Program-made: the position numbers and the translations under genes
Shown: positions 3,070-60,034 of the stretch, one piece after another
Layout: each line of letters begins with the position of its first letter
Position numbering within the stretch: the stretch's first letter is position 1
Assembly (NCBI GenBank): GCA_024663395.1
Contig: JANFAH010000044.1
Location: 310,001-374,000 of the forward strand
Reading direction: 5' to 3'
DNA: 64,000 nucleotides
Origin: Pisolithus tinctorius
Taxonomy: Eukaryota; Basidiomycota; Agaricomycetes; Boletales; Pisolithaceae
The notes under the pieces: generated by a model
What the model saw: only the letters and a program-made list of their open reading frames with translations
The model's database searches: none
Told to the model about the DNA's origin: nothing

Positions 3070-4325
3070 TTATGGTGGATGTTGGTACAGGCCAGGTTTG
3101 TGCAGATAGCACTCATGAAAAGTGGAGATGATGTTGGAGATGTGATCCAACTCAGTTGCAAGCAACCAAGAGGTTTCTTCATTGGTGTTCTTGTAACCAG
3201 CCCAGTGGACTAGGTACAGGAGTTGGCAGTAGCAGTGACAGTGGTCCACCTTAGAGTCAAGTATCTCTGACACTTCGTACTCAAGGTCACCATTGATATC
3301 CTATCCACTGGCAGAGGTGGAGGTTGTTGTCAGTTTGGTAAAGGGTTAGCTGCTGTGGCTTCCAGTTTTGAGACATGGAAGACTGGATGTACCAAGCACA
3401 TAGAGTCAGGGAGCTTAAGGGTGATGGAGTGCATACCTGGCCTGGCCAAGATGGTGAATGGACCTAAGTACTTTTCAGATAGTTTTTCCAAGGGACAAGT
3501 AGAGCAGAAGTACTTGGCTTTGACATAGGCCTGTTCTCCAACCTTGAACTCAGGTGGAGGTATGCATTTGGCATCTGCTGGACCCTGGAAGTGCTGCTGA
3601 GCAGTGGACATTTCAGAGTGGAGGAATTCATGGAGGGCAGAGAGCTCAATGACATAGTCATGAGCCCATGGAGAGGTGAAGTCCTGGTCAGGGACCACAG
3701 ACAGGTTTGGATGGCATCCCTTGTTAGCAAAGAAGGGAGAGACTCCAGTTGTTGCACTTGGTGCATTGTTAAAAGTGAACTCTGCTAGGGGTAAGAGCTC
3801 AGCCCAGTTGTCCTGTTGGTAGTTACAGTAGATGTGGAGGTACTGCTTGAGGGTCTGGTTTGTTTGCTTGGTCTGGCCATTGCCTTCTGGGTGGTAACCT
3901 GAAGTGAAGTGAAGATGCATGTCAAGGGCCTTTCCTAGAGAGTGGAAGAAGTGAGAGACAAACTCAGGACCTCTGTCAGAGGTGACATTAGCAGGTACCC
4001 CATGCTTGGAGAAGACATGGGTAAGGAGGAGCTTAGTGAGTTCAGTGAAGGTGATGGAGTCGTGAGTGGGGATGAACATGCTTGCTTTGAGAGGCAGTCC
4101 ACCACCACAAGGATGGCAGAGTAACCATCAGAGTTGGGGAGGTGTTTGATGAAGTCCATGGAGATGGAGTTCCAAGATCTCTCTGGGACAGGGAGTTGCT
4201 TCAGTAGACCATAGGGGTGGTGACACAGAGTTTTGCTCCATCCACAGGTGGTGCAGCACCTGACATATTCTTTCACATCAGAGCAGAGGTTAGGCCACAC
4301 ATAGTCTCTGTGGATGAGTTCTAGG
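3070..4325 (-). pseudogene. G1 integrase C-terminal half and chromodomain
   Basis: This is the continuation of G1 pol beyond the hAT insertion. From high to low coordinates it shows the zinc-finger cysteines of the integrase N-terminus (about 4250), the first catalytic Asp in SMDFIKHLP, the second in SDRGPEF, and the Glu region after YHPEGNGQT. A GPF-type module and a chromodomain (3070-3273, with LVHWAGY) follow. A frame break lies between integrase and chromodomain. The 8-bp target duplication of the hAT element occupies 4318-4325. Confidence 0.85.
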
Positions 4326-7131
4326 TAGTGCTGGGGGCAGAATTATTTTCAGTTGATATCTGCTGGCACAATGGTGCAGTGGCAGTTGGTGAAATGGCAC
4401 AAGGTGGCAGAATCAGTTTTTTTTTTTCCCTACTTACCATGCATACAACTATTGTAAATGAATACCAATTCTTAACTAGAGACCTTCTGACGATGTCAGT
4501 GAGCCAATATCCCAAGTTGTGCTGCCTTCAGATGCTTTCTTGAGTGCAGTAACCTCCTCCCTGAATCCTCTTGGAGCCAACCCCTTATCCACATGATCCA
4601 GTTCATCCCATGCATACAAACCTCCATCAAGAACTCTAGACAGTGCACCATCATCCAACTGATCAACATCACTCATGCATGCCTCTGCTTTCTCATGCTC
4701 AAGCTCCACAAAAGCTTCAACAAGTTCTTCATCTGTGATGGATTCAGGGCCAGCAAGATAGTCATCTGGGTCATGAGTGTTAGCTGCCAGTGGTGGGACC
4801 CATGAGAAAGTCCGTTCGAGGTCAGCTGCCAGTTCTGTATCAATTCCAGGTGTTGGCTGGGTGTGCATGTGGGCATGTTTCCAATGCATTGACTTCCCAG
4901 CTGCGTGATCCATTTTCCAAAGATGGTAAGAGTAGTGCACACATGCTTTGCTGAGCATTTGAAATGTTTCGACTGTAAGGCCACATCGCTTGTGAGACTG
5001 AACACCACCAAGGTCTGAAAAATAATGCTCAACATCAGCTGCATGAGGGACCATTGAATGGATTGTGATGGCCATTAGCTTTAATGGACATTTTTCTGCA
5101 CTGATAGGAAGTGACTCCCACCATGCGAGAGCATCTGCTTCTCCACCAGCAAAGACACCAGAGCACTTATAGTACTCTTTGAGATTGTGGACAACAGAGA
5201 TTGCAAGAGCCTCATTCCACCTCCATTGCTTCGCAATCTTGAGTGCAGCCTCAACCATAAATTGGAAGGAATGTCCACTTGCAACCTGGGAGATTGCAAG
5301 CTTCCAGCACATTGGATGAAGGAATAGTGCAAGCGAGTGGATGGTTGTGTTCATTGCATGGAAACAGCAATTGAACACAGTCTGTGCATGGGCCCAGAAG
5401 GAAGCATCATCCCCATCCTCAAGGCTAAGCTTGGACACCGTCCTTGCACAGTGTATGAGGGTAAGCATGCAGTCTGCAAGTGATGTGTCATGTGACTTGC
5501 AGTCCCCAATAGCATCAACAAGGGGTTGGGCAGTCTTGATTAGTTGTCCAATTGCATTCCAAAATTCTGCATCATGCAACACAGTTGTGATGACATCCTT
5601 TGCAACTGGGGTAAATCCACCAATTTGGCACTGTGCATCTGGGTGAACACAAACTAGGGTAAGTGCATTGCTAGCAACATTTACATTATGTCAGTAAAAT
5701 TATAGCTTAAATTAATATCACTAATAACAATACTTACCGATGCTTGTTGACACTGATTGCCTGAAGAATCAGTGCATACCATTGTGTTTTGCAATTTTGC
5801 TTCAGGGTTCGTCTGATGCCATCCTTCCTGGCTTGTTCCTTCAACTGACCTCCCCAGTAATGCGAATTATTGAAAAATGAGACAATACAAGTGGCCTGTG
5901 CAATGACCTGCTTCATCTGTGGGTGTGCACAAATCTTGCCAATGATATTATTAATCCCATGAAGAAAGCAAGGGAGTGACTGTAAGAGAGTCAATTAAGA
6001 GGCCTATACTATGATATGAAATACTGGGTTGGACATACTATGATCCAATAATATTTATCCTGGAATTTCTGCCAAAAAGCTTGCATAACAGTGGGATTAT
6101 CAGTCGTTACAGCAATGAAATTACGACCATCTTCCAATTCCATCATTTTCAGTGACTGCACTGCTGCCTCGAGTATCTTGTCTGCAGATGCATGGTGGCC
6201 AGTCAAGTCTGTAAGACTCAACACTACTGGGAACTGATAAATCTCTGCTGCAATTGTGCCATATAAGCTTCGCTTTAGCTTATCCTCCCAACCATCAATA
6301 AGGAAGGTAAGCCATTTCCTGTCCTTCAGCCTTGCAATATCATCAAGTTGAATCTGACACTCTTCACTAGCCAGAATAGAGTGCGAGAGCACATAACAAG
6401 AGGCAGGGGTATATGAAGGTCGGATCTTGTCAAGCCAGTTGAGAAAGAACCAATTTCCTGTGACGGAGAATGGTACATTGGCATGTACAAGGAATCTACA
6501 CCAACCAATAACTAGTGAGTCCATGCACTGAACTTAGAAACCTGTAGCGACACACCGGAACAGTTTGACATTCATGTGCTCTAGTTGGGCCTTAGTCATT
6601 GGGGAATCAACATAGCCCAGCAGTGAACCCTGGCATTTCACTGGCACAAGTGTTCCAGCTGTGCTTGTAGACAAAATCAGTGAAGTGCTAGATACCTCAG
6701 GCAGGGCCACCTCTGCATTCTTTGTGGCCAAGAAGGTTTGTGGTGCATTATGGACAGTTGGTGGTACATTTGGGCACCTGGCTGTATCAGTGAGGTGTCA
6801 GATGTGATTATTATCATGGCCCTCAATTTGAGAACCTGTCCCTGCTGATGTCATGCAGTGTATGCATTCATAGTACCAGCAATTAGACTTGTTGTTGACT
6901 TTCCCAAGCCACCGGAAATTGTCTGTTACAAGCTTTGGGGGCAGGCGGCCTTTCTGTGACATCATAGCATCAGAGTTGACCATTTGTGCTCATACAGTTT
7001 AAAATTTCCATAGCATATGTGACTGGACACTAATCTGACAGCTTGTTTATTCTGCCACCTTCTGCCAGACCCAGAACACTATGGCTGGCAATTGCCACTG
7101 GCAAAATGGCAAACTTCTGCCAACAGCACTA
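4326..7131 (-). mobile_element. hAT DNA transposon inserted in G1 integrase
   Basis: This 2806-bp element is bounded by terminal inverted repeats beginning TAGTGCTG, about 17 bp with two mismatches (TAGTGCTGGGGGCAGAA against TAGTGCTGTTGGCAGAA). The flanking 8-bp direct repeat GTTCTAGG lies at 4318-4325 and 7132-7139. An 8-bp duplication and a TAGNG terminus are diagnostic of hAT elements. The element interrupts G1 pol between the integrase HHCC region and its core, and it carries a degenerate transposase on the minus strand. Confidence 0.93.
4476..6983 (-). pseudogene. hAT transposase, spliced, two nonsense mutations
   Basis: Three exons are visible (about 6983-6039, 5979-5738, 5653-4476), separated by GT-AG introns at 5980-6038 and 5654-5737. 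The N-terminus has a CxxC and His-rich BED-like finger (about 6880). The first catalytic Asp lies in LIDGWED, the second in TTDNPTV. The C-terminus holds the hAT dimerisation region with WWESLP and VPHAADVEHYFS, where the acidic catalytic residue is expected. The first exon contains TGA at 6798-6800 and TAA at 6534-6536 in an otherwise single frame. This copy should not make full-length enzyme unless those stops are sequence errors. Confidence 0.85.
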
Positions 7132-7139
7132 GTTCTAGG

Positions 7140-8424
7140 GTGCAGTTTTGCCCAAAATGGCCTGCCAGAGGGTGGTCATGGTTGAACTGAAGCACTTGAA
7201 GGCAGAGATCATCAATATCGGGGACAAAGATGCATCTGTCAAGGCAGAGCAGACCATTGGAGTCCAGGGACCACCAAGGCTTAGTCAGAGTTGGGAGATG
7301 GCTGGAAGAGACAGGGTCAGATGGTAGGGTGGAGATGATGTTGGAGTGCAAGCACTCAACATCAAAGACCATGGCAGTGTGGAGCACAGGTGCCATGAGG
7401 GTAGTGGTATGGAGGGACAACATGAGTTGCTCCTGTGTAAACATAGGTTGGAGATTGTGATGATTTACCTGTGCATAGTCCCTATCCCCCCCTTTTGGGT
7501 AGACATCCCAACATCATGTAAGTGCATCAGGTTTGGCTCCCAGGCAGCCAGGTCAGAAGTGGATGGAAAGGTTGAACTGTGAAAGGTACTCCAACCAGTG
7601 GGCCTGTTGATGAGTGAGAACCTTAGAGGTGGCAAAGTACTCAAGGTTTTTGTGGTCTATCACCATGTCAACAGGTAAGGTGGAACCTTCTAGGTAATGC
7701 CACCAATGGCAGAAGGCCTCAAAGATAGCCAACAGCTCCTTGTCATGGGTATCATAGTTGAGTTCTGGTGCAGTCATGGTGCAGGAGTAGAAAGTGACTG
7801 GGCAGAGTTCATCATCAGAGCAGGTGAGCAACTAAATGCCAGCAATGGCATAGTCAGAGGCATTGGTTTCAACTGTAAGTGGAGCATTAGGAACCCAGTG
7901 AGTGAGAATAGGGGTGGAGCTGAAGGCATCCTTCAGGCAGAGGAAGGCAGAGTGGCACTCCTTGGAAAAGTTCCAAGGAGCACCCTTTCATGTGAGGCAG
8001 GTGAGCAGAATGACAATTTGTAGTTATTACATCAGTAAATCACTTTCACTGGCCAGAGCTGTCCAGAGCTGTCTAGCACTGGACAGATTCCCCAGGACTG
8101 CCAGCTCACAAAGTGGTTTACTGATGTAATGAATTGTCTGTAGAAGTTTGCAAAGTCAAGGAAGGACCAGATATCTCACACCTTCTGCCACTCAGGCCAG
8201 TCATGGACTGCCTGAACCTTCTTGGTGGACATGGTGAGACCAGAGGGAGAAAGAATGTAGCCAAGGTACTCAATGGAGTCGGAGTGGAACTTGCACTTCT
8301 CCAGCTTGGCATAGAGGCCATGCTTTCAAAGGTGGCAGAGTACCTCTTTTACATGTTCATGGTGCGACTCCATGCCCTGCAAATAAATCAGGATGTCATC
8401 AAGGTATACCATGATGTAGACATC
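7140..8424 (-). pseudogene. G1 pol: end of reverse transcriptase, RNase H, start of integrase
   Basis: This middle fragment of G1 pol lies between the young G2 insertion (right) and the hAT insertion (left). It encodes the end of RT, RNase H (with NYDTHDKELLAIFEAF and VIDHKNLEYF), and the integrase zinc finger (HDHPLAGHFGQN). The frame is broken several times, including by the 97-bp MITE at 8030-8126. The reading order matches the intact G2 protein and the G4 copy. Confidence 0.85.
8030..8126. mobile_element. 97-bp MITE with TA target duplication
   Basis: The left end reads CATCAGTAAATCACTTT and the right end is its inverse with one mismatch (complement CATCAGTAAACCACTTT). It is flanked by TA at 8028-8029 and 8127-8128. 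The homologous site in G4 (36640-36655 region) is uninterrupted, so this is a clean insertion. The TA duplication and short inverted repeats fit a Stowaway-like, Tc1/mariner-mobilised MITE. Confidence 0.85.
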
Positions 8425-8952
8425 TGTCAAGTACGAGGATTGTCCGGGTTGAGTCCGGACCGGAGACCGATGCGGGCACGAAGCCGAGGGGTCGGGGTCA
8501 GGGGTGAAGTCGAGGATGCAGATGTTTGGACTGTTTGGACTTAGCGACTGAGGATACAGCGCTATTCCCTTGCGTGGATCTCAGTCCGAGTCCGAGGCCA
8601 AGGCGGGGTTATCAGGAGATACTTAGTTGATTTCAGACTAAGGAGTACAGGCCGAGTAACTATGAGCTTATATACCAGAAGTAACTATAGTACGGAGACT
8701 GGTAATGCCGGTCTCGCAAAGATTGCTAAGCAGATTGGTAAGACGAGGATTACTAACGTATGACTAAGGTAACGGAGACCGGGACAGGCAGACCGGGGAC
8801 AGGACCGGGGACAGGACTTAACCGAAATGACAGACACTGCAAAGCAGTGTCTACCACGCTAGACCGACTGGAGATATGGGACTGGCGAGGCCAAGGCCGG
8901 ACTAAGTGAGTGCGAGGCCGAGTCCGACTGGGGTCGAGACATGACTATGACA
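8425..8952 (-). repeat. G2 3' LTR
   Basis: This 528-bp LTR, read on the minus strand, is the downstream copy. It differs from 15493-16020 by 14 transitions, all at CpG dinucleotides. It lies 137 bp upstream of the start of the plus-strand antisense gene, so it could also supply that gene's promoter. Confidence 0.95.
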
Positions 8953-9089
8953 GTATCCCCCTCTTAGGGGTCGAACCCATGAGACCCCTGCGAGAGTGGT
9001 AGGCTGAGTCCGAAAGTTGGCTGAGTTCGAAAAATTGATACTTGTGGCCCGCTAAGCCCTTTGCGTCTTTCTTTCACATCCTAACTATC

Positions 9090-10181
9090 ATGTCCAACTC
9101 AAGACTGATCGTCGCCGCTGACAACAACAACGAAGGCCGAGTCGTTGTTGATTGGGCCCAAGTCCCTGATGACGACATCAGGTACGACACTGATGACGAG
9201 GAGGAGGTGATGAGGGCGAAGGCGAAGGAGAGGAAGAGAAGAAAGGCGGCTGAACAAGCCCGGCGCGAAGAGCAGGTGCGGCTTGAGGCCGAAAGGGTGG
9301 CGAGGGAGCAGGCCGAAGCCGAGAGGGCAGCGCGGGAGAGGGCTGAGGCCGAGAGAGCAGAGAGGGAGGCTGAGGAGAAGAAGGCGCGCGAAGAGGAGGA
9401 GAGACGGGAGGCCGAGCGTAAGTGTAAGGCCGGGGCCGGCAAAGGTGATGAGGCCGGTACTAGTGGTGAGGCCGGGGGTGAAGTGAAGCGGGTGGTAATG
9501 GACCCCGGGTGAGTATCTTTTTGATCTGGTGTGCGTTTTTCTTTTAACCTTCTTTTCAGTTGTACTCGCTGCGCCCGGGCTCAAGTCGTCTGCGAGTTTG
9601 TCGTAGACGGCAACAAGAAGTGCGTCGCCTGCGTGCGATGCAATCATTCAAAAGGTAAATGCCGGTGGCCCAGGGATGGCAAGGATGCCGAGGCCGGTCC
9701 TAAGGCCGCTCTCAAAGCCGACAAGGGGAAAAAGAGGAAGGCGGACGACGAAACGCCTGAGCCCGGGCCTAGCAAGAAGAAGGCGAAGGCCGTTGAGAAG
9801 CCGCTGGAGGTGCTGGATGTCGATGAAGACGAGGCCGGTGGGAGCAGACTGAGGGGACCCGGTGCGACAGCGTTCTTGGGCTTGGAAGACAAGCTCGAGC
9901 GCTTGATCGACGTCGCGGGACTTATCGCAAACAACCTGGCAGGCCTCTTCGAGGCCCATGAGGCCATGGCCGAGAACTCTGGCAGGATCGCCGACGCGCT
10001 TGAGGCGATGCTCGACGAGTCCTACGGCTTCGGGATGGCAGTGTCTCCCTCGGACTCGGGCTCGTCTGAGCTCGACTCTGACGAGCTGCGCGAGGAGGCC
10101 GACTGGCTGAAGGCCCATGGCGAGGAAGAGGAGGAGTCCAAGGGGGAGGACGAAGGGGAGGACGAGACCATGGCTGAGTAG
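9090..10181 (+). CDS. Antisense Zn2Cys6-like/coiled-coil protein carried by G2
   Basis: The join is 9090-9508 and 9560-10181 with a 51-bp GT-AG intron, giving 346 aa. Residues about 45-125 are an Arg/Glu/Ala-rich helix, probably coiled coil. The cluster starts right after the intron: C141-x2-C144-x6-C151-x12-C164-x2-C167-x6-C174. This matches the spacing of fungal Zn2Cys6 binuclear DNA-binding clusters, with one extra Cys at 161. Lys-rich nuclear-localisation-like stretches, a helical domain (about 240-290) and an acidic tail follow. The gene runs opposite to gag-pol and converges on the chromodomain. It is not a gag, pol or env protein. A DNA-binding or regulatory role is inferred from the cluster only. 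Being antisense, its intron is not spliceable from the element's genomic RNA, which would let it survive retrotransposition. Confidence 0.8.
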
Positions 10182-10355
10182 CTTGTAGCGTAGGTCTTGT
10201 AGTTCCTTCCTCTGCGAATGTCAAGTGTCCGGTGTCCGGTCCTCTATAGTATAGTAAGAGAAGACAAGAAAGAGAAAACATAGTAAGTAGAGATCAAGAA
10301 AACTAGATACTGGTAGAAGACAGAACAGAAAACTGAGGCCGGTTGAGACCGGTGC
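10182..10355. other. Convergent 3' ends of antisense gene and pol
   Basis: A short gap lies between the stop of the antisense gene and the end of the chromodomain frame. The two transcripts converge here. No further gene is seen. Confidence 0.5.
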
Positions 10356-10637
10356 TCATTGGAAGGGGCCGGGTTTATTAGGATAGTGAGAATGGAACTC
10401 TTGCACGAGTTCAGAGGCATTGTCTAGCTCTGTAGCTAGTACCCAAGTGGTCTCTTCATCGGTCCCTTCATAGCCGGACCACCAGACTAAGTACTGTAAC
10501 CAACACTGGCGTCGTCGGTCGACCTTGGAGTCGAGGATTTCTGCCACCTCGAACTCTAGTTCGCCATCGACTTCGACCGGTGGGGGTGGTGGTTGAGTCT
10601 GGTTCGGGATGGTGTTAGGGACAGCCGGCTCGAGTTA
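10356..10637 (-). pseudogene. G2 chromodomain, cut off by a nonsense codon
   Basis: This is the C-terminal tail of G2 pol, in the same frame but after a TAA at 10635-10637. In G4 the codon at the same place (after HVS) is CAA, so one C-to-T change explains the stop. The chromodomain at 10356-10547 has the aromatic-rich core (LQYLVWWSGY, then TTWVLATEL). Chromodomains of this lineage recruit integrase to modified histones. Without read-through this copy's integrase would lack it. Confidence 0.88.
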
Positions 10638-13600
10638 GGAAACATGGAAGACCGGGTGCACTGCGCGCATTGAGTCCGGCAGGCGCAGTGTGAAAGAGTG
10701 GGTACCAGCCTGAGCTATGACCGGATATGGTCCAAGGTTCTTTTCCGAGAGCTTCTTGGAAGGCCGAGTAGACCGGAAGTATTTGGCTTTGACATATACC
10801 TGGTCACCGACCTTGAAGTCCGGAGCCGGCATGCGTTTGGCATCGGCCGGTCCTTGGTAACGCTGTTGTGCGAGGGTCATCTCCTCACGTAGGTATTGGT
10901 GCAGTGAGTCTAGGTCAACCGCATAGTCACGAGCCCGAGCGGAAGTGAGGTCGCACTCCGGGTACACCGAGATGTTGGGGTGGTACCCCTTATTAGCGAA
11001 GAAGGGGGAAACACCGGTAGTAGCGCTAGGGGCGTTATTGTAGGCGAACTCGGCCAAAGGTAGTAGGTCGGCCCAGTTGTCCTGCTGATAGTTGCAATAG
11101 ACTCGGAGGTATTGTTCGAGAGTCTGGTTAGTCTGCTCGGTCTGGCCATCACCTTCGGGGTGGTAGCCCGAGGTGAAATGTAAGCGCATGTCTAAGGCCT
11201 TACCGAGTGACCGGAAGAAGTGAGACACGAACTCCGAGCCTCGGTCTGAGGTTACATGGGCCGGCACTCCATGCTTAGAAAAGACATGGAGTAAGAAGAG
11301 TTTGGCGAGTTCTGGGGCCGTGATAGTGTCGTGGGTGGGGATGAATATGGCCTGCTTGGAAAGCCGGTCAACTACTACAAGGATGGCCGTGAAGCTGGTT
11401 GAGGCCGGGAGCTGCTTGATGAAATCCATAGAGATGGAATTCCACGGTTTCTCCGGCACCGGAAGCTGCTTGAGGAGGCCGTAAGGCCGATGGCGGGGAA
11501 CCTTAGCCCGAGCACAGGCCATGCAAGACCGGACATAGTCTTTGACGAATGTCCTGAGGCTGGGCCAGGTATACTCACGCCGGATAAGTTCTAAAGTGCG
11601 GTTTTGGCCGAAGTGGCCGGACAGAGGGTGGTCATGCTTGAGGCGCAAGACCCTAAGGTGGAGGTCATTTGAGTCCGGCATGTAGATCCTTCCATCAAGA
11701 CGAAGGAAGCCGGTGTCATCTACTGACCACCGGGGATCGGACATGTCGGAGAGACGGATTTGTGAGACCGGGTCGTCTGGCAGTGCGGTCAGGATATCAT
11801 TATGAAGTTTCTCTACATCCATCAGTGCGACTGCTCGTAAGACCGGGTACTCGAGGTATGTGGCGCGAAGGGAAACCGCTAGTTGCTCTTGGGTGAAGAC
11901 CGGTCTCAGATTTTGTGGGTTCACTCGGGCATAGCCACTATCCCCCTCTTTGGGGTAGACGTCCCATCGTCTAGTTAGGGCATCGGGCTTAGCCCCGAGC
12001 TTACCGGGCCTGAATCGAATGATCATATTGAACTGAGACAGGAACTCAGACCAGCGAGCTTGGCAGCGGGTGAGTACTTTAGAGGTAGAAAAGTACTCAA
12101 GGTTCTTGTGGTCGGTTACAACGTCGACCGGTGAGGCCGAGCCCTCAAGGTAGTGACGCCAGGTCCGGAATGCTTCAAAGATTGCAAGCAGTTCCTTATC
12201 ATGGGTGTCATAATTCAATTCTGGGGCCGTCAGAGTCCGGGAGTAGAATGCGACCGGATGAATCTGGCCGTCGCCGCAAGTAACAGACAGAATGCCGGCG
12301 ATGGCGTAGTCCGATGCGTCGGTCTCGACGGTGATAGGGACCCCGGGGATGAAATGAGTTAAGACCGGCGCGGTGGTGAAGGCGGCCTTGAGGTTGTTGA
12401 ATGACCGGCGGCACTCCTCGGAGAAGTTCCAAGGAGCCCCCTTGTGGGTAAGCCGAGTCAGCGGTATGACGATGTCCGAGTAATTAAAGATAAACCGGCA
12501 GTAAAAGTTGGCGAAGCCGAGGAAGGATTGTATGTCTTTGACCTTGCGAGGCTCGGGCCAATCGCAGATGGTCTGGACCTTTTCCTTCGACATCGTGAGG
12601 CTGGCAGGGGAAAGGTGGAATCCGAGGTATTCGACCGAGTCCGAGTGGAACTCGCATTTCTCCGGCTTCGCATAAAGGCCGTGAAGCCGAAGCCGGCGGA
12701 GGACCTCTCGGACATGCTGCTTGTGAGACTCCTTATCTCCAGAGTAGATTAAGATGTCATCTAAGTAGACGACTACGCAGACATCCAACATATCCGCGAA
12801 GATGGTATTCACGAAGCGTTGGAAGGCGGCTGGGGCATTGGTGAGGCCGAAGGGCATTACTAACCACTCATAGGATCCATACTGAGTCCAGAATGCGGTT
12901 TTCCATTCATCGCCCGGGGCAATCCGGACGAGATGGTAGGCATGCCGAAGATCAATTTTAGTATAGATCTTGGCTCGGCTTGGTGAATCCAAGAGGTCGG
13001 AGATAAGCGGGAGTGGGTAGCGGTCTTTCTTAGTGATTTTGTTGAGGCCGCGGAAATCTACACAGAGCCGGAGGGAGCCGTCCTTCTTCTTGACGAAGAG
13101 GACCGGTGCAGCATAAGGGGATGAAGTAGGCCGAATGAATCCGGTGGTGAGGTTTTCATCGATGAATGTCCGGAGAGCTTGGAGCTCAACCGGGGATAGC
13201 AAATAGATGGTGCCGAGAGGCGGGGTTGTTCCTTCTTCGAGCTCTATCTTCAGGTCATACTCCCAGTGTGGCGGGAGTGCCGAGGCCTTGGCCTTGCTGA
13301 ATACATCAGCGAAGTCATGGTACTCTTCCGGGACATTGGGTAAGGCCAGAGGAGGGGAAGCCGAGGCCGATCGGGCTTGAGCTGAGTCCGAGGGGTGGAG
13401 CTGAAGTTGGAATTGGACGGACCCTTCTAGTTTGCAGGCGCGCACAAAAGCGGCTGCATTGATTAGGGAAACCAGAGGGGCCTTCAGAGGGGGGCGAGCC
13501 GGGGAGTCAGAGACCGGTACAGATGGCGCAAGGCCGGGTTGGTTGCTAGGACCGGAGTCAGGGAGGCCGGTGGAAACCGGGCTTACAGGGGGTGTCGACG

Positions 13601-14081
13601 GGATTGGCATTCCTTGTGCAGGAGTCCGGAATGTTAGACTGCTCAGTACCCAGTCAATCAACGGATTGTAGCGGGTGAGCCAGTCATGTCCGAGAACTAT
13701 CTTACACTCGGAATCCAACGGGGCTAAAAACAGGGTTACTGGGGTGACATCGCCGGATGCGAAGCGAATGTTGACATCTACTGCTTGGGTTATGGTGAAG
13801 GTGGATGTTCCATCGAAAAGCCGGAGTCGGATTGGTGAGACCGAGTAAGGGGTAAATGAATGTTGATTAGCAAATTGATTATCTATGAAACAGTGCGTGG
13901 AACCGGAGTCCACTAAAGTATGAAGCCGAGGTAAATCTGGGTTTTCTAATGTGACATAGGGGGTTAAGGAGTTCGGACTGGAAAGAGTGGACGCATTGAG
14001 ACGAGCCTCCAAGTTTGCACAACCAGAGTCAACGCAGCTCCCAGATTGTGCGGAGTCCTGGGAGCTGCTACCTATTTTTTT
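10638..14081 (-). CDS. pol: G2 Pol polyprotein (PR-RT-RNase H-integrase)
   Basis: About 1125 residues are open from 14012, and the frame is open back to the gag stop region. Order: retropepsin-like protease (LVDSGSTHC near residue 35), RT ([20 protein letters not shown]; catalytic YLDD), RNase H (TVETDASDYA, NYDTHDKELLA, TDHKNLEYF), integrase with HHCC finger (HDHPLSGHFGQN, CMAC) and D-D-E core (SMDFIKQLP, SDRGSEF, GQTEQTNQTLEQ), then a GPY-type module. All catalytic motifs look intact. There is no usual ATG at the start. Expression is predicted by -1 frameshift at 14075-14081. The natural protein should extend into the chromodomain but stops at TAA 10635-10637. Confidence 0.93.
14034..14081 (-). 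promoter_or_regulatory. Predicted -1 ribosomal frameshift site, G2 gag-pol
   Basis: On the minus strand the gag stop TAG (14074-14072) directly follows a run of seven A (14081-14075), which fits the X-XXY-YYZ slippery heptamer. After a 6-nt spacer comes a perfect 11-bp stem (14068-14058 with 14044-14034) around a 13-nt loop. Slipping back one base opens the pol frame. The same arrangement occurs in G1 and G4 with a different but paired stem. Confidence 0.82.
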
Positions 14082-15454
14082 GTCTCGGGGGTAGAACCCG
14101 AGCCCGAGGCCGGTGCGGCCTCGGTGGTGGCTGCAGCGCGAGCTTTGGCCTTTCCGGCTTTCTTAGGGCATTTGTCAGCGAAGTGACCGGACCCTCCGCA
14201 GAACATGCAGAGGTTTCCGTCTAGGCGACGCTTGCGTTCTTCTGGGGTAAGCTTTCCATCTTTGCCGAGTTTGCTAGGCTCGGGCTTGGACAAATTGCTG
14301 TTACTATTGTTGCCCGGCTTCGATGAAGCCGGCTTAGGGGTAGAACCGGTGTTGTTGTTGTTGTTGCCGGTCTTGGTCTTCTCTTGACCGGTCTTGGACT
14401 GGTTATTGTTGCCGGAGCTGCCGGACTTGTTGTTACTAGAGTTGGACAAGCCTTGGTGCTTATTCGCCCGCTGGACTTCCTCCTTGCGCTCCCAATAGCG
14501 TGCATCTATCTCCTGGGCGAGGTGGCGGAGCTCGTGAAGTGTCCGGGGTTTGCCAACCTGGCAGACCTCATCTTTGATTCGGTCCGGGAGGCCGGAGTAG
14601 AAATGATGGCGCAGCGCACTGTCACCGTAGCCTCGGACTTGCGAGGCAAGCCGATTGAAGTCAACCACATATTTGTTGATGCGCTGACTGTCCTTCATAT
14701 GTAAATGGTCGAGTTGGCTTTTGGCGTCAGCGACCGGGTCGTGGGGGCCGAAGGTGGTTTGCAACTCCAGGACGAACTCCCGCCAGGAGTCCATCCAGAG
14801 AGGCTGGTCATCGGGGTCATCGAGCCCGAGTAAGTCCGGCTCGAACCACTCTAAGGCCATGCCTTTGAGGTACGACTGGGCGAAGATGACCTTGGCGCGG
14901 TCGGTCCTAAAAGCCCGGGGACGGTCTTGGAAATTGAGTTCGCACTGGATGAAGAAAGTGCGAAGTTTCTTTGGGTCGGTGCCGTCAAAGGTGTCGGGCT
15001 CGCGTAACTTGGTCCTGCTTGAGGACTCAGGACTAGTACGGGTATTGCGAGCCAACAGCTTGATGGCCTTCGCGAGACTGTCAAAGACCGCGACCGCAGG
15101 TTCGGTGTCCGGATCTGGGAAGTCTGGATCGTCTTCCGGATCATTATCTTCCGGGTTATCATCACTGGGACCATTATCACCGGGGTCATCATCGTCTGGG
15201 TTGTTGTCATCATCGTCGCCCGGCCCATCATCGCCGGGGTCACCCTCGGGGATGGGAGCAGTGGGACGACATGGGGTGGGGGTGTTAGATGTGCGGGCTG
15301 AGAAGCCCCTGAAAGGACTAACGGGACCTGGAGAGTGCCTAGTGGTGCCCAAAGCAGCTAGTGCTGTTTCGCGGCGAGCCCCACTGGCTGAAGCGGAGTC
15401 GGGATTAGTGGCAGAGCGGCCATGGGGGGGTTGGAAGCGAGTCTTGGTTGCCAT
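14072..15454 (-). CDS. gag: G2 Gag polyprotein with CCHC zinc knuckle
   Basis: This is 460 aa from an ATG at 15454. The N-terminus is rich in Ser and Pro, followed by a long Asp/Pro/Gly acidic repeat (about residues 75-115). A retrotransposon capsid-type domain follows, with KLRTFFIQCELNF and SYLKGMALEWFEP. Then comes a Ser/Asn-rich linker and a CCHC knuckle (CMFCGGSGHFADKCP, about residues 415-430). Gag forms the virus-like particle and binds RNA. The stop overlaps the predicted frameshift site to pol. Confidence 0.93.
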   Translation of the reverse strand: MATKTRFQPPHGRSATNPDSASASGARRETALAALGTTRHSPGPVSPFRGFSARTSNTPTPCRPTAPIPEGDPGDDGPGDDDDNNPDDDDPGDNGPSDDNPEDNDPEDDPDFPDPDTEPAVAVFDSLAKAIKLLARNTRTSPESSSRTKLREPDTFDGTDPKKLRTFFIQCELNFQDRPRAFRTDRAKVIFAQSYLKGMALEWFEPDLLGLDDPDDQPLWMDSWREFVLELQTTFGPHDPVADAKSQLDHLHMKDSQRINKYVVDFNRLASQVRGYGDSALRHHFYSGLPDRIKDEVCQVGKPRTLHELRHLAQEIDARYWERKEEVQRANKHQGLSNSSNNKSGSSGNNNQSKTGQEKTKTGNNNNNTGSTPKPASSKPGNNSNSNLSKPEPSKLGKDGKLTPEERKRRLDGNLCMFCGGSGHFADKCPKKAGKAKARAAATTEAAPASGSGSTPETKK

Positions 15455-15480
15455 GATGGTTTAGACCCACACAAGTGGCG

Positions 15481-15490
15481 AGTCTGAAAT
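15481..15490 (-). promoter_or_regulatory. G2 primer-binding position, complementary to LTR
   Basis: The 10 nt lie 2 nt inside the 5' LTR edge (15493). On the minus strand it reads ATTTCAGACT. It is the exact complement of the LTR segment AGTCTGAAAT (15707-15698), which sits about 35 nt downstream of a TATA box (15742-15736). This is the arrangement used by self-priming Tf1/sushi-type elements, whose mRNA 5' end acts as primer. Confidence 0.75.
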
Positions 15491-15492
15491 AC

Positions 15493-16020
15493 TGTCAAGT
15501 ACGAGGATTGTCCGGGTTGAGTCCGGACTGGAGACCGATGCGGGCGCGAAGCCGAGGGGTCGGGGTCAGGGGTGAAGTTGAGGATGCAGATGTTTGGACT
15601 GTTTGGACTTAGCGACTGAGGATACAGCGCTATTCCCTTGCGTGGATCTCAGTCCGAGTCCGAGGCCGAGGCGGGGTTATCAGGAGATACTTAGTTGATT
15701 TCAGACTAAGGAGTACAGGCCGAGTAACTATGAGCTTATATACCAGAAGTAACTATAGTACAGAGACCGGTAATGCCGGTCTCGCAAAGATTGCTAAGCA
15801 GATTGGTAAGATGAGGATTACTAACATATGACTAAGGTAACGGAGACCGGGACAGGCAGACCGGGGACAGGACCAGGGACAGGACTTAACCGAAATGACA
15901 GACACTGCAAAGCAGTGTCTACCGCGCTAGACCGACTGGAGATATGGGACTGGCGAGGCCGAGGCCGGACTAAGTGAGTGCGAGGCCGAGTCCGACCGGG
16001 GTTGAGACACGACTATGACA
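15493..16020 (-). repeat. G2 5' LTR with TATA box
   Basis: This 528-bp LTR is the upstream copy for the minus-strand element. On the minus strand a TATATAA box lies at 15742-15736. The predicted transcript start lies near 15707, where the self-primer segment begins. Confidence 0.93.
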
Positions 16021-22350: not shown

Positions 22351-22560
22351 CTTCTGCCATTCCTACCTGTCTCTGTTCCTCTCTACCCCATGATACCCCT
22401 TTCTGCAGCAGCAACAACCTCCACCCCCCTGCCACTTCCACTGCTACTGTCACTACACCTTCTGTGCTGACTGGGGACCATCAACATTTGAAGTCCCCTG
22501 CAGGGGAGACCCACATACCACTCACTTGATCCAATACCAAACACAGTTTGTTTCTCCTTA

Positions 22561-24135
22561 CAGTGAGGGACAAAAGTGTTGCAATGTTTGTGAGGTGTGA
22601 TTTGTTGCTGATGTAGCTCAGGCTATTCTGCACAGATCATCATGATACCTATACCAATGGAAAGGGGTGACTCTAAGCTTCCCAGAGCACTAAGGTTAGG
22701 CCAAAACGAAGCAATACATGCCAAGATACACCCCATTCTTTCTGAAAAGTGCATTGCAATGCTTCTGTCCCTGACTGGCAAAATAGTGAAAAGTGACCTT
22801 TTGATGGGATTGAGGGCATGAAGGATGGGAAAATATGATTACATAATAAACCACATGATCATCCAGATGATTTGTCAGCATGTAAACAATGACAAACATT
22901 GGACTTGTACCCATTAACCCTCCCTCTTTTACCACAACTCATGAAATCATCTCTCTAGCTCACATGGTCATTTTCTCAAGGAATTCTTATCAAATACTGG
23001 TGGCCACCACAGTGCCATCAGCATAACATGCTCTCAGAACCATCAGTCCCTTAAAAAACCTGCTGTCAGTCATTTCCTGGACTGTTTCCCTCCCCATGCC
23101 TGATGTGTTCTGGGACTAGTCAGTACTTGGAAGGTTGAAAATGTTATGGACGTCAATCTGGCACTTCAGAACATGATGTACAAACCAGTCCCCTCTCAAC
23201 CAATGCATTTCTGGCACAGGGACAGTGGTATGGAAGTTAGGGCAAGACAAAATCCTCTTTACCCCTGGGTGTCATCAGAAGGATATGCTACTGAACTGCC
23301 ATGGAGCAGAATCCTGTGCTTCCATCTGGCCCTGAATATTGCCTTTGGTCACATAAGACCAAATAATCCTTCCCCAGTCATCTACAGTTCAGATCAGAGC
23401 AAGATCTAGTGAACCCTCTTATGGTGCTCAGAGCACAAAGAGGTTTTGTCTCACCCCAACTTCCATACCAGTGTTCCTGTGCCAGAAATGCATTGGTTGA
23501 GAGGGGACTGGTTTGTACATCATGTTCTGAAGTGCCAGATTGATGTCCATAACATTTTCAGCCTTCCAAGTACTGATTAGTCCCAGAACACATCAGGCAT
23601 GGGGAGGGAAACAGTCCAGGAAATGACTGACAGCAGGTTTTTTAAGGGACTGATGGTTCTGAGAGCATGTTATGCTGATGGCACTGTGGTGGCCACCAGT
23701 ATTTGATAAGAATTCCTTGAGAAAATGACCATGTGAGCTAGAGAGATGATTTCATGAGTTGTGGTAAAAGAGGGAGGGTTAATGGGTACAAGTCCAATGT
23801 TTGTCATTGTTTACATGCTGACAAATCATCTGGATGATCATGTGGTTTATTATGTAATCATATTTTCCCATCCTTCATGCCCTCAATCCCATCAAAAGGT
23901 CACTTTTCACTATTTTGCCAGTCAGGGACAGAAGCATTGCAATGCACTTTTCAGAAAGAATGGGGTGTATCTTGGCATGTATTGCTTCGTTTTGGCCTAA
24001 CCTTAGTGCTCTGGGAAGCTTAGAGTCACCCCTTTCCATTGGTATAGGTATCATGATGATCTGTGCAGAATAGCCTGAGCTACATCAGCAACAAATCACA
24101 CCTCACAAACATTGCAATGCTTTTGTCCCTCACTG
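22561..24135. mobile_element. Foldback element, 1575 bp, ~700-bp inverted arms
   Basis: The left arm (22561 to about 23266) is repeated in inverse at about 23431-24135 with near identity. The unique spacer is roughly 165 bp. The ends read CAGTGAGGGACAAAAG on each side, flanked by TA at 22559-22560 and 24136-24137. Terminal CAGTG and TA duplication are typical of Tc1/mariner elements. The same 79-codon frame occurs in both arms (22696-22935 and 23761-24000), which is expected of a palindrome and is not evidence for a gene. No transposase is seen. Confidence 0.85.
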
Positions 24136-24137
24136 TA

Positions 24138-25762: not shown

Positions 25763-28735
25763 TGTTACATTTCACCCCTCTGTTTTCTTGCTCCTGCTGT
25801 ATGTCTACCTTGTGTTTGATCTGTTGGACTACTTTTCCTCTCTGAGCTGTCTTCTCTCTGATCCAATGGCTCCTTATGTCCACCACTAGCATAACTTTCT
25901 TGTTACATGCTTGGGATGTGTGTTGTTGTTGTTCAGCCAGTAGCATAATGACCTTGTTACATGCAGATGCCTCATGGTCCATCCTCTTGTAGTATTTAGA
26001 CTGCTGGCTCAAGTCCTGGAACCCCAGACTTGAGCCGCTCAATCATATGCAGTGTTTCTCCACCAGAGTCTGCTGACTTTGACCAAGCAATGTGGTAGTT
26101 ACCACAAAAGCAGTTACAGAATTCATGGCAACTACCACTTCCCAATATAGACAATGCCCCCTGAGTGACAACCTCTGTCAGTGTTTGAAAAAAATTCAGA
26201 TTGGAATGTTCCCATGGCAGGTTACCCTGTCACAAATATTGATAATTTGCACCTGTACTGTGGCTATACAGATGAGCATGTGACCAGTAGATGTGATGGT
26301 CACATGATGAGTGACATAAGCAGAGATGACCCTAGATCATGTGATTTTTACATAATTGATTATGTGATGTGATCCTCCAGAGTGTTCTGTTATGTAATTT
26401 ATCATGTGATCATGGGAAAATATGCATGTGACTTAATCAATGTCACATGACAAGGTACAATCATAGATCATCCAACCTATTACATAATGATCACATGTCA
26501 GTTTCTCCCCAGAACACTTGGTTATGTAATGGGTCACATGATTGTAAGACAATAGACATGTGACCACTCCTGCAGCATCACATGACAAGGTACAGTCATA
26601 GATCATGTGACCTTTTACATAATGGTCATGTGGCAATAACTCTCCGGACCATTGGCTTATGTAATAGGTCTCATGACTGTACTCATCATGTCATCTCACC
26701 TCTAGCACTCTGCATGTGACTCAATCCATATCACATGACCAGCAATCCCACCACTATTCACATGCTGGGCATTTGTGGCTGTGCTAAAAATGCGAATTGT
26801 GTCCCCACCCATTCAATTCTTGACATATGGATCTGAATTTTTGTGTGTAGAATAGGCTACCATGTTGTTACACATTGTCAAAGACACAGCTGGTCTTGTC
26901 CAGTAGTTGCTGAGATATAATGGAAATGAAAATGCCAACAAAACATCACACCATTCAACTTACACATCCTTCATGCCATATCTGACACTTCAGAAGGGTT
27001 GGGCACATGCATATCAATTCATAGACAAAGTTTGGTGTCACCCCACTCAGATCTGAGAGAGCAAGATGCAAAATAAAGATTCAAGAGTGTGGGAAAGTGG
27101 GAAAAAGTCCAAAAATAACATATGGAGATTTTGAAAACATATCAAAAATGCGGATTTGCACACATCACAGTGACCCTGCCAACCCCAGACTTTGGGTGAA
27201 GAATGCAACAATATGGCCTACCATGTTGGCACCATGTGCCTGATGAGATATCCACTTAAACATGTCAAAATTGCGAAAATGTGTGCAATGGGGTAGTGGT
27301 GTTGACCTTGCACTGGCATAAATCTCCCATTGTCTCAATGAGTCAAGTGTACCATTCCGCATTTTTGACCATTTGCAGTGAGTATCACATCAGGCACTTG
27401 TTACTAATATCTTCCACCATGTCCCAATATCCCTCACCTAAGTTCTGGTAGTGGTAGCTGCACTGTGGGATGTGCTGTGCTATGTTTTTGACATGTTTTC
27501 AAAATCTTCACTATTTTATTTTCTCTTTTTGAAGCTTTCCCACGCTTCTGGGATCAGTATTTGGCTTGCTGTTCACTCAATTCTAAATGGATAAACTTGA
27601 AACTTTGGAAATGCATTGAAGGAATCTTCTTCAACCCTCCTGAAGTTTCAGATGTGGCATGAAGGATGTGTAAGTTGAATGGTGTGATGTTTTGTTGGCA
27701 TTTTCATTTCCATTATATCTCAGCAACTACTGGACAAGACCAGCTGTGTCTTTGACAATGTGTAACAACATGGTAGCCTATTCTACACACAAAAATTCAG
27801 ATCCATATGTCAAGAATTGAATGGGTGGGGACACAATTCGCATTTTTAGCACAGCCACAAATGCCCAGCATGTGAATAGTGGTGGGATTGCTGGTCATGT
27901 GATATGGATTGAGTCACATGCAGAGTGCTAGAGGTGAGATGACATGATGAGTACAGTCATGAGACCTATTACATAAGCCAATGGTCCGGAGAGTTATTGC
28001 CACATGACCATTATGTAAAAGGTCACATGATCTATGACTGTACCTTGTCATGTGATGCTGCAGGAGTGGTCACATGTCTATTGTCTCACAATCATGTGAC
28101 CCATTACATAACCAAGTGTTCTGGGGAGAAACTGACATGTGATCATTATGTAATAGGTTGGATGATCTATGATTGTACCTTGTCATGTGACATTGATTAA
28201 GTCACATGCATATTTTCCCATGATCACATGATAAATTACATAACAGAACACTCTGGAGGATCACATCACATAATCAATTATGTAAAAATCACATGATCTA
28301 GGGTCATCTCTGCTTATGTCACTCATCATGTGACCATCACATCTACTGGTCACATGCTCATCTGTATAGCCACAGTACAGGTGCAAATTATCAATATTTG
28401 TGACAGGGTAACCTGCCATGGGAACATTCCAATCTGAATTTTTTTCAAACACTGACAGAGGTTGTCACTCAGGGGGCATTGTCTATATTGGGAAGTGGTA
28501 GTTGCCATGAATTCTGTAACTGCTTTTGTGGTAACTACCATGGTCATTTGGTCAAAATCAGCTGATATGGCTGGTTTCTCAGAACTTTGCCCTCAGTGTC
28601 CCTAACCTGGACCACTCTCACCAGCATTGACTAAATCCTTTGTCATTTACGAAGGTTACTGCAGCTGTTGCTCAGTAGAAACCAATTGTCTGCATTTGAG
28701 CCCTCCCTACATCTTGACTTCAGTTGAGCATAACA
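25763..28735 (+). repeat. G3 5' LTR, split by a 2.5-kb insertion
   Basis: The LTR parts 25763-26060 and 28574-28735 together match the 451-bp 3' LTR. A TATTTA box lies at 25993. The self-primer segment AGACTTGAGC is at 26026-26035, and its complement lies just inside the LTR at 28739-28748. Confidence 0.9.
26061..28573. mobile_element. Palindromic insertion, 2513 bp, ~1.1-kb inverted arms
   Basis: This is flanked by GTTTCTC (26054-26060 and 28574-28580), extendable to 9 bp with mismatches. The arms 26061 to about 27165 and about 27475-28573 are inverse copies, nearly identical over most of their length and more diverged at the centre and the extreme ends. Each arm contains a tandem array of about 95-110-bp units with TTATGTAAT and TCATGTGA motifs (26340-26700 and inverse). 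The arms mirror each other's frames, so those frames are not genes. A foldback or Mutator-like non-autonomous element is the likeliest identity. No transposase is seen. Confidence 0.8.
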
Positions 28736-29949: not shown

Positions 29950-32088
29950 GCATTGATGCCAGATGTTCCCAACACTAAGGACAGTTCTCCCTCTGTTGCA
30001 CCTGTACATGTATCTTCTACACCAGAACATACTATGCAGATCCCCATTTCCCTCTGTGCATCAGAAAGAACCACCAAAGTCATCAACACCACCACCCTAG
30101 TTGACTCTGGAGCAGAAATATCCTGCATTGAGTGGGGTTTCAAGCAAAAACACCAAATTCCCACTCAACGACTCACTGAACCCATTCTTACCAAAAACAC
30201 CAATGGAACCCAGAATTCCAAAGGAAGAATCCTCTTTTCCACCACCCTCTACTTCAAGGTGAAAGGGCTCGTCCATCAGTCCTTTTTCCATGTCATCAAT
30301 TGCAGAACAGAAAACATCATCCTAGGTCTCCCTTGGTTGCAAGAAAACAACCCAGTTGTTGATTGGAGAATGGGCATGCTATCCATTGACGAAAAGACCA
30401 ACAGGTCTAAAGAATTGAAATGCAACATCTCTTCTGTTGCAGTAGAAGAACCTGCCATGAACCTTGTAACTCCTGCTGAAAAGAAAGGGATAAATAAGTT
30501 TATGGACTATGAAGAACCCAAAGATGAAACCATCCACACACACTTCATGATGTCAGTTGGAAAACTTGTTGAAGAAGCCAAGAAGATTAATCCCAATAAT
30601 AGTCTTCTTAGACAAATCACCATGGCTACTGAATTTGCCCAAGAAGAACACAGAAAGAAACTGAAAGTGGTTCTCCCTGAAGAATACAAAGACCATGCCT
30701 TGATCTTCGAGAAACCCTCCAATGGAGTGCTACCTCCATTATGACCTTACAATCATGCTATTAACCTTGTTGAGGACTTTGTCCCCAAAGTGGCTAAAGT
30801 GTACCCACTCTCCCCCTCCAAGCACGAGTCTGCAGAAAAGTTTATTGAAGAAAACCTTTGTGAAGGAAAGATCTGTCCCTCAAAATCTCCCCAAGCAGCA
30901 CCCTTCTTCTTTGTAGGAAAGAAAGACGGCTCCCTCCATCCATGCCAAGATTACTGATATCTGAACAAAAACACGGTGAAGGATGGATACCCCCTTCCCC
31001 TTATTTCAGATCTCATTGATAAACTCAAGGGAGCATCTATCTTCACGAAGATGGATGTAAGATCAGGCTATAACAATGTCCATATCAAAGAAGGAGAGCA
31101 GTGGAAAGCCACATTTATTATGCATAAGGGACTTTTCGAACCCACTGTTATGTTCTTCAGACTATGCAACTCTCCCACCACCTTCCAGTGATTCATGAAC
31201 AACTCCTTCTGAGACATGATTGCAGAAGGATGGTTGGTCATCTATATGGATGACCTTCTCATATTCTCCACCAGCCCCAAAGAACATAAACAAAGAACCT
31301 GCTACATCCTTGAACAAATGAGGGAACTCTTGCTCCCTCTGAAACTGGAAAAATGCCACTTCAATCTAACCAAGGTTGAATATCTTGGAATGATCATCAA
31401 AGAAAACACCATCGCCATGGACCCTGTTAAGGTCCAAGGCATTGCAGAATGGCCAGTTCTGAAGAAGGTTAAGGACATGCAATCCTTCCTAGGATTTGCA
31501 AATTTCTACTGAAGATTCATCCTGTACTATTCTGGCATTGCTTGACCCCTCATTGACCTTACCAAGAAGACAACTACTTGGGAGTGGTCAAAAAAATGCC
31601 AGACTGCCTTTGAACTCCTGAAAAGGATCTTCATGGCACAACCAACCCTTCGAATGCCTGACACCTCTCAGCCATTTGCAATAACAACTGATGCATCAAA
31701 ATATGCAACTGGAGGTGTTCTCCTCCAAGAAGATTCTAACAGCCAATGGCAACCTTGTGCCTTCATCTCTCAGTCATTCAACCCTGCAGAAAGAAATTAT
31801 GACATCTACAACAGAGAACTACTGGGAGTCATCCAAGGCCTAAAATCTTGGAGATATTATCTCCATGGATCACCATTCCCAGTCAAGGTCTTCACTGACC
31901 ACAAGAATTTGACCTATTTCAAAGTGCCACAGAACTTGAACCATCACCAGGCTCACTGGCTTCTTGACCTCGCAGATTTCAATCTGCAACTTGAACATGT
32001 TCCAGGCAAAGACCTGGCTGCCCCAGATGCACTTTCCCACCGACCTGATCATGTTCCCGATGACAATGAGGATAACAAAGGAGTCACC
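29950..32088 (+). pseudogene. pol: G3 pol part 1: protease, RT, RNase H
   Basis: The protease has LVDSGAEISC near 30100. RT runs from about 30740 to 31500, with [16 protein letters not shown], the YMDD catalytic box near 31243 and FLGFANFY. RNase H has TTDASKYATGGVLLQ, DIYNRELLGVIQGLKSW and VFTDHKNLTYF. Six in-frame stops (30742, 30955, 31189, 31210, 31510, 31543) are all TGA at places where RT family members carry Arg. No frameshift is seen. G4 is inserted after 32088. Confidence 0.9.
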
Positions 32089-38100: not shown

Positions 38101-38608
38101 TCCAGCAGATACCAAGCACATACCTCTGCCTGAGTTTAAGGTTGGAGAACAGGCCTATGTCAAAGCCAAGTACTTCTGCTCCACTCGTCCTTCAGAAAAA
38201 CTCTCCAAAAAGTACTTAGGTCCATTCACCATCTTGGCCAGGCCAGGTATGCATTCTGTCACCCTTAAGCTCCCTGACTCTATGTGCTTGGTACATCTGG
38301 TCTTCCATGTCTCACAACTGGAAGCCACTGCAGCTAACCCTTTCCCAAACCAACATCAGCCTCTGCCTCCACCAGTGGATGTCACTGGTGACCTTGAGTA
38401 CAAAGTGTGGGAGATACTCAACTCTAAGGTGGACCGCCACCACTGCCACTGCCAACTCTTGTATCTAGTCCACTGGGCTGGTTACAAGAACACCAATGAA
38501 GAAACCTCTTGGTTACTTGCAACTGAGCTAGATCACACTTCAGACATAGTATCTGCTTTCCATGAACACTATCCACACAAACCTGGCCTGTACCAACCTC
38601 TGCCATAG
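35070..38608 (+). pseudogene. pol: G4 pol: protease to chromodomain, broken
   Basis: The protease has LINSGSSHCF, with Asn where the catalytic Asp is normal. RT starts near 35930 and is broken by a 1-bp deletion near 36250 relative to G1 (Tyr-Gly-Ser-Tyr lost). YLDD lies near 36361. TGA stops occur at 36589, about 36631 and 37117, at expected Arg positions. RNase H (TVETDTSGYA, NYDTHDKELLA) follows. The integrase lacks its zinc finger, deleted at 37437-37490. The core (SMDFIEHLP, SDRGPEF, GQTEQTNQTLEQ) and chromodomain (LVHWAGY, near 38460-38490) are open to TAG at 38606. Confidence 0.9.
37437..37490. other. Deletion scar with palindromic LTR-end fragment
   Basis: About 50 bp matching the left end of the 17106 insert, with the same GTAGGGAA / TTCCCTAC hairpin, replaces roughly 250 bp of integrase zinc-finger coding sequence present in G1 and G2. 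It is probably an insertion followed by deletion of its remainder plus flanking DNA. Confidence 0.65.
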
Positions 38609-43506: not shown

Positions 43507-43544
43507 GTTGAAGTCAGGGACTTCAATGCTTAGAAGGGGGGTAA

Positions 43545-43995
43545 TGTTACATTTCACCCCTGTTTTCTTGCTCCTGCTGTATGTCTACCTTGTGTTTGAT
43601 CCATTGGACTACTTTTCCTTTCTGAGCTGTCTTCTCTCTGATCCAATGGCTCCTTATTTCCACCACTAGTGTAACTTTCTTGTTACACACTTGGGATGTG
43701 TGTTGTTGTTGTTCAGCCAGTAGCATAATGACCTCATTACATGTGGATGCCTCATGGTCCATCCTCTTGTAGTATTTAGACTGCTGGCTCAAGTCCTGGA
43801 ACCCCAGACTTGAGCTGCTCAATCATATGCAGCATTTCTCAGAACTTTGCCCTCAGTGTCCCTAACCCAGACCACTCTCACCAGCATTGACTAAATCCTT
43901 CGTTGTTTATGAAGGTTACTGCAGCCATTGCTCAGTAGAAACCAATTGTCTGCATTTGAGCTCTCCCTACATCTTGACTTCAGTCGAGCATAACA
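43545..43995 (+). repeat. G3 3' LTR
   Basis: This uninterrupted 451-bp LTR begins TGTTACATTTC and ends GAGCATAACA. It matches the two parts of the 5' LTR. Confidence 0.93.
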
Positions 43996-48291: not shown

Positions 48292-48422
48292 AACCTCCAG
48301 CACCTGATCTACTCACATGCTATCCACCCAATGCCACAGCCACATTAGTATTTGTTATATCCTCTTTTTTACAATTTTACACACTCGCTGTTGAAAAATC
48401 AGTATCTCCTCCAATCCACTCA

Positions 48423-59880: not shown

Positions 59881-60034
59881 TTCAAGGGAGTTAAGGAGGA
59901 CAGGCAGGCGATTGAATCACATCGGGCTGTCAAGAAGCGCACGAGGGGTATACATATGTACTCGTGAAAAGAGTATCCATTCGAATTTATATCCAATGCG
60001 GTACGACTGCATTGGTGCACTCACCATCGATCCC

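Follow-up and report, generated by a model that had tools for sequence, protein, structure and literature searches.

Our analysis showed that a Ty3/gypsy chromovirus of Pisolithus tinctorius carries, between pol and its 3' LTR and on the strand opposite to gag-pol, a gene of 346 codons that recurs in its relatives and is under purifying selection. The gene, its splice sites and its position were established computationally, as were its homologues in sister families, weak zinc-cluster-like fold matches of its product, an excess of diversity and mosaic exons. We are moderately confident that it is an accessory gene of one Boletales chromovirus clade, whose spliced antisense product would be a nuclear DNA-binding protein that regulates the sense transcription or the copy number of the element.

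The element, G2, occupies positions 8424-16020 on the minus strand of the window (the whole 64,000-nt stretch of DNA that was analysed) and has the RT-RNase H-integrase order and the C-terminal chromodomain of a chromovirus. Its 3' LTR (8424-8952) and 5' LTR (15492-16020) are 97.4% identical and enclose gag with a Ty3-type capsid (14072-15454), pol with protease, RT, RNase H, integrase and SH3_Tf2-1 (10635-14012) and the chromodomain of pol (about 10386-10550; PF00385, E 1e-10), all on the minus strand. An in-frame stop at 10635-10637 cuts the G2 pol ORF off from its chromodomain; elsewhere in the genome, uninterrupted pol frames of 1254-1272 aa adjoin copies of the antisense gene. The latter runs in G2 from an ATG at 9090 to a TAG at 10181 on the plus strand. 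Exon 1 (9090-9508; 139 codons and two bases) forms a charged single helix in the predicted model, in line with the charged helical N-terminus of the original prediction, and is followed by a GT-AG intron of 51 nt (9509-9559; GTGAGT...CAG) and by exon 2, which includes the stop (9560-10181). Splicing yields 346 aa with no internal stop, and this translation, together with the LTR pair and the location of gag and pol on the minus strand, confirms the intact spliced antisense gene that had been predicted before the 3' LTR. An alignment of 14 proteins and the predicted models place a six-cysteine zinc cluster at 9561-9662 (+), spaced C-x2-C-x6-C-x12-C-x2-C-x6-C in G2, whose seventh Cys (C161) is absent from the other 13 aligned proteins, and a conserved C-terminal helix, possibly with a role in dimer formation, at 9879-10022 (+), followed by an acidic tail. 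The leader between the 3' LTR and the gene (8953-9089, +; aligned in 13 elements) has a purine-rich tract adjoining the LTR on the minus strand and a CT-rich stretch directly before the ATG on the plus strand, and is a putative antisense promoter or 5' UTR.

A search of the 92.5-Mb assembly with exon 2 gave 604 candidates, the best 150 of which were scored and all matched, so that the P. tinctorius genome holds at least 150 exon-2 copies; 129 of the 150 have no internal stop, a figure that favours intact copies because the list was ranked by score. In each of the 20 G2-type loci fetched from these 150 (ranks 2 to 38), pol or a piece of it lies downstream and on the opposite strand, at a distance of about 2.3 kb in L014, L025 and L026 and as a stretch of 43 residues in L018. 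LTR repeats that are 89.7-100% identical (over a 201-nt stretch only in L010) flank 14 of the 20. L025 also holds a second, diverged exon-2-like match (5479-6051; 35% identical), located some 1.2 kb away from the first. A listed SH3_Tf2-1 domain lies within 3 kb of 59 of the 150 exon-2 copies, downstream on the opposite strand in 58 cases, upstream on the opposite strand in one and on the same strand in none, and at 1046-1084 nt from the start of exon 2 in 56 of the 59; the remaining 91 copies are not counter-evidence, because just 150 of 1710 SH3_Tf2-1 candidates were scored. In every one of the 32 loci that were selected through the gene (20 G2-type, 12 G4-type), the end of pol is on the opposite strand, and the intron was found in 19 of the 19 copies with both exons detected, counts that uphold the original picture of a recurrent, spliced, antisense gene. 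GTRAGT and AG are kept at the ends of the intron, its length is 46-58 nt and its body is divergent (mean 29% in 14 elements). It is still present in L021, whose LTR pair is 100% identical. The earlier argument for its survival through retrotransposition is sound: the sense genomic RNA of the element carries its reverse complement, from which it is unremovable, and it thus outlasts each round.

The reading frame of the gene is constrained. Mean pairwise dN/dS (NG86) was computed for G2 and those 13 fetched loci whose LTR repeats are at least 94.8% identical; L028 (89.7%) and the six loci that lack an LTR pair were left out. The values are 0.16 and 0.14 for exons 1 and 2 (14 elements each), 0.12 for gag (13 elements) and 0.08 for pol (12 elements, four with 1-4 stops), bearing in mind that stop codons were skipped, that the pairs are not independent, that L010 and L011 are near-identical in the segments used and that several dS values are near or above 1. 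The proposed comparison across element copies thus revealed purifying selection. A six-frame control on the 14 elements picks plus frame 0 as the coding frame: its pN/pS is 0.23 in exon 1 and 0.21 in exon 2, its third positions take 54% and 60% of the changes, respectively, and 13 of 14 copies are stop-free in it in either exon. Minus frame 1, the mirror frame with which it has third positions in common, has a pN/pS of 0.41 in exon 1 and 0.29 in exon 2 and is stop-free in 14/14 and 0/14 copies, and the other four frames have values of at least 1.08. The low dN/dS, the third-position bias and the conserved cysteines and splice sites together show that selection acts on the protein.

We distinguished three types of the gene: A, the G2 type; B, that of G1 and G4; and C, a third, newly found family. 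The decayed relatives predicted in the window at the same place and strand in G1 and G4 were recovered by tblastn, a B-type one in G1 at 2201-2800 (+; queries P0121/P0122), opposite its pol (3369-4342, -), and one in G4 at 38888-40021 (-), opposite its pol (37493-38314, +). The G4-type intron, however, is not at the G2 point as had been thought, lying about 26-28 codons upstream of the cluster (three of four loci tried gave a splice), and the G4-type cluster is spaced C-x2-C-x8-C-x9-C-x2-C-x6-C. A further relative, supposedly split by G3, was not found, either in the frames of 42100-45200 or when the whole window was searched with seven relatives (tblastn, E 1e-4). Genome-wide, type B gave 394 candidates, the best 150 of which were scored. 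In each of 12 loci, which include G4 itself and some near-duplicates, the gene has the end of pol next to it on the opposite strand. Type C came from a probe of about 2.1 kb after other chromovirus pols at 15 loci, picked for long pol frames rather than at random: three loci have open exons whose cysteines are spaced as in G2, with an intron (49-50 nt) that matches that of G2 in position and phase, and 12 have no antisense ORF of at least 80 codons with the cysteine pattern, a filter by which a decayed copy could be missed.

Profile comparisons relate the three types. The whole proteins match at E 3e-31 (A-C) and 3e-11 (A-B), and the zinc parts alone, with the charged helix removed, at 5e-16 and 2e-5, the zinc parts of C and B giving a weaker match than either (hhalign E 0.0022, probability 13%); the tails match between A and C (3e-9) and not between A and B (0.06), and eight reversed controls all had E values of at least 0.018. 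Between families, the carriers share 58-91% identity in their pol tails (with G4 alone standing for B), against 28-38% for the non-carriers (61% for L053, over 18 residues); between A and C, the pol tails are 88-91% identical and the antisense-gene products 32-38%. Since the tails of carriers are so much closer than those of the non-carriers, among which 12 of 12 probed loci showed no copy, the gene appears to be an inherited trait of one chromovirus clade. The earlier conclusion that distinct families share the gene as a module is therefore not supported as worded, and "recurrent cargo of basidiomycete chromoviruses" was too broad, with no antisense ORF of this cysteine pattern seen at 12 of the 15 probed loci and Melanogaster broomeanus as the one species outside Pisolithus among the matches listed. 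The best 120 of 174 matches in a protein search with the gene are all from P. tinctorius (Boletales). P. orientalis has P0182, which matches type B, and P0256, which matches type C, both without a zinc cluster as annotated. Two proteins of M. broomeanus (Boletales, Melanogastraceae), P0261 (E 6e-6) and P0262 (E 5e-3), known as proteins only, are 80% identical and have the full cysteine pattern, and the A-type profile matches P0261 at E 2e-16. No genus besides Pisolithus and Melanogaster is among the matches listed in three protein searches, though further species may be present among those of the 174 that fall outside the best 120, and none of 23 cysteine-pattern matches in viral contigs is a relative.

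In several other chromovirus families, pol is directly followed by a sense frame of about 440-530 codons, at the site of the antisense gene of the carriers (L041, L042, L044-L047, L052 and L048-L049, interrupted in L049). That of L042 ends in a CCHC-like knuckle (19.8 bits vs. a Pfam cut-off of 20.8) and that of L048 has no Pfam match; a gag-like ORF after pol would be unusual. A sense Cys-rich ORF lies downstream of pol in a further element, at 42898-43503 of the window and in L054, and the copy in the window appears to be interrupted by G4 (pol pieces at 30679-32070 and 40969-42183). The window also contains a palindromic insertion (26093-28540) with arms of 909 nt (26093-27001 and 27632-28540) that are 100% complementary and separated by 630 nt, the whole lying within a repeat of which 43557-43996 is an unbroken relative; a second long inverted repeat (22559-24137) with arms of about 700 nt, 97-98% complementary and 131 nt apart; a tandem array of 78-nt units (47564-48409), largely within an open frame (47649-48452, +); and a direct repeat of about 2.4 kb (58128-60571 and 61591-63996), 84% identical, with starts about 3.46 kb apart.

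The cluster had been described as a textbook Zn2Cys6 motif. The pattern of this family (PF00172) is C-x2-C-x6-C-x(5-12)-C-x2-C-x(6-8)-C, and it is present in 160 of 191 listed proteins (types A and C and M. broomeanus), all 160 with a linker of 12; the G4 type departs from it by the x8 of its first loop. The spacing thus fits in two of the three types, but the Pfam Zn_clus scores (13.9 and 10.6 bits) are below the curated cut-off of 21 bits, for which reason we do not file the cluster as a PF00172 member; P0001, P0096 and P0121 had no Zn_clus row in the Pfam search. The predicted models weakly resemble the zinc clusters of Gal4, Leu3 and Pho7, the Foldseek matches (Pho7, RING, BRPF1 and coiled coils) all having E values above 1, and 13 matches of the A4 profile to PDB sequences include no Zn2Cys6 protein (best E 0.021, Hsp70). 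It might conceivably be that Zn2Cys6 half-motifs occur here in swapped order. In a test of half order that was limited to proteins with the full pattern, which 31 of the 191 lack, and whose leave-one-out control misplaced 1 of 24 known halves, the first half was right-like in 52/52 and the second left-like in 39/52 family C proteins, and both halves fitted the swap in the two M. broomeanus proteins; in type A, the second half was left-like in 106/106 and the first right-like in just 19/106, the G2 copy scoring left-like in both. LEU3 matched both halves in swapped order, at 7.6 and 6.8 bits, and single halves gave no Pfam match in nine of nine cases. Specific CGG target sites in the LTR were considered and rejected, since the excess of CGG in the LTR (z 3.9) is accompanied by one in pol (z 3.0); exon 2 has none (z 0.1).

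The gene stands out from its surroundings in diversity. Mean p-distance is 0.167 in exon 1 and 0.162 in exon 2, compared to 0.076 in the leader, 0.120 in the stretch after the gene, 0.066-0.077 in pol, 0.089 in gag and 0.132 in the LTR (including L010, whose LTR was mis-set through a nested insertion). In 120-nt windows over 13 elements, the stretch of raised diversity runs from the ATG to near 10370; some raggedness is also seen along the outer edge of the LTR alignment. G2 differs from L021 by 2-6% at 9244-9344 and by 24-26% at 9705-9903, and from L009 by 14-21% and 3-7% over the same segments, while the divergence between L019 and L021 is 12-25% across exon 1 and 1-7% at 9605-10003, so that the histories of exon 1 and exon 2 switch near the intron. 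Read from these pairwise distances, the mosaic exons appear to be the product of recombination between elements acting on old alleles, for which template switching may have been the route. A more speculative and, in our opinion, unlikely reading is that of an allele-diversified self-regulator, with old alleles reshuffled near the intron within a young family and a zinc cluster that is maybe Zn2Cys6 with swapped halves. Many old alleles would then coexist because resident copies fail to repress an element whose allele is rare, and this, if true, would be a transposon analogue of immunity or of mating-type-like specificity. Coevolution of LTR and gene was rejected: in Mantel tests on 13 elements (L010 was left out, its nested insertion disturbing its LTR bounds), the LTR correlates with exon 2 (r 0.38, p 0.0003) less strongly than with polN (0.61), polC (0.49) or gag (0.48), which argues against a specific coupling.

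In the regulatory role that we favour, transcription would start from the 3' LTR or leader and run towards pol, and the transcript, which could be made while sense transcription is off, would be spliced once and translated into a nuclear protein with a long charged helix, a Zn2Cys6-like DNA-binding module, a helix (probably for dimer formation) and an acidic tail. With this anatomy the protein most plausibly acts on nuclear DNA, for which the element is a natural target; it would most likely bind in or near the element and regulate its copy number or its sense transcription, in the manner of deltaretroviral antisense factors. What we infer here is expression, nuclear entry, DNA binding, the target and the sign of regulation. 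The protein could instead work with the chromodomain integrase or the pre-integration complex and aid insertion targeting or nuclear entry rather than transcription; the carriers are chromodomain elements, the predicted module is of a DNA-binding type and some other clades have a sense ORF at the same place, one with a near-threshold CCHC knuckle, but an antisense transcript would be poorly suited to producing a partner of gag-pol, and we consider this rather improbable.

Less probable still is a protein that counters host silencing of the element; the gene diverges more than pol, and the A and C products are only 32-38% identical, but the dN/dS of 0.14-0.16 is not elevated. Zn2Cys6 factors are common in fungi and the host genome has 32 PF00172 exons (several in pairs of equal score on different contigs, perhaps haplotype duplicates), yet an origin from a host transcription-factor gene, through capture or a chance insertion, is the least probable of all: position and strand are fixed in 32 of 32 gene-picked loci, the carriers are one pol clade, and the 150 scored element copies face 32 host exons, none of which coincides with them when the match lists are compared by eye. 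Antisense transcripts could silence the element, as proposed for plant aORFs (PMC7264820), and it may be that the RNA itself (dsRNA or small RNA) matters, the reading frame being incidental; this is only slightly less improbable than a host origin, and is strongly disfavoured by the dN/dS of 0.14-0.16, the third-position bias and the kept cysteines and splice sites. The regulatory protein remains our preferred reading.

P. tinctorius can be grown, and the DNA-binding-type module, the intron, young insertions and many natural alleles together make the role of antisense accessory genes directly testable in this fungus. The conserved intron marks the antisense mRNA unambiguously, and the diversity hump and mosaic exons provide a population-genetic handle.

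Antisense accessory ORFs as such are already known: in plant LTR retrotransposons they are established between pol and the 3' LTR (aORF-3R), with functions described as unknown (PMC7264820, PMC11963269). What appears to be new here is a spliced antisense accessory gene whose DNA-binding-type module can be recognised; the literature searched, outside of which most subscription papers lie, yielded no report of an LTR element with a zinc-cluster gene in antisense. PMC5689174 counts Chromoviridae in P. tinctorius, its main text containing neither "antisense" nor "additional ORF", and an element scheme in PMC2864245 has an additional ORF of unknown function. Like Grande gene23, RIRE2 and the Retand TRP28 ORF, the gene is antisense to gag-pol, in 20/20 G2-type, 12/12 G4-type and the three family C loci (the last picked by pol), and it is conserved like other element proteins (dN/dS 0.14-0.16 vs. 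0.08-0.12). Plant aORF-3R are likewise said there to be present in most copies, conserved and possibly DNA-binding, and the Grande protein to be nuclear with its own promoter (PMC7264820, PMC11963269); unlike them as described, the G2 gene is spliced, zinc-cluster-like and found in fungal chromoviruses. Going by its description, brtn of Boty in Botrytis cinerea (Zhao et al., 2011) is similarly an antisense extra gene of a fungal LTR element. With Gal4, Leu3 and Pho7 the product shares six Cys, the spacing of types A and C and weak predicted-fold matches, but it scores below the Pfam cut-off, its halves may be swapped and it is borne by a retrotransposon. In its way of working it would resemble HTLV-1 HBZ and the APH proteins, regulators made from a spliced antisense transcript that starts in the 3' LTR (as outlined in PMC10186651); these have a bZIP or no bZIP and no zinc cluster, and the likeness would be one of function, with no homology claimed.
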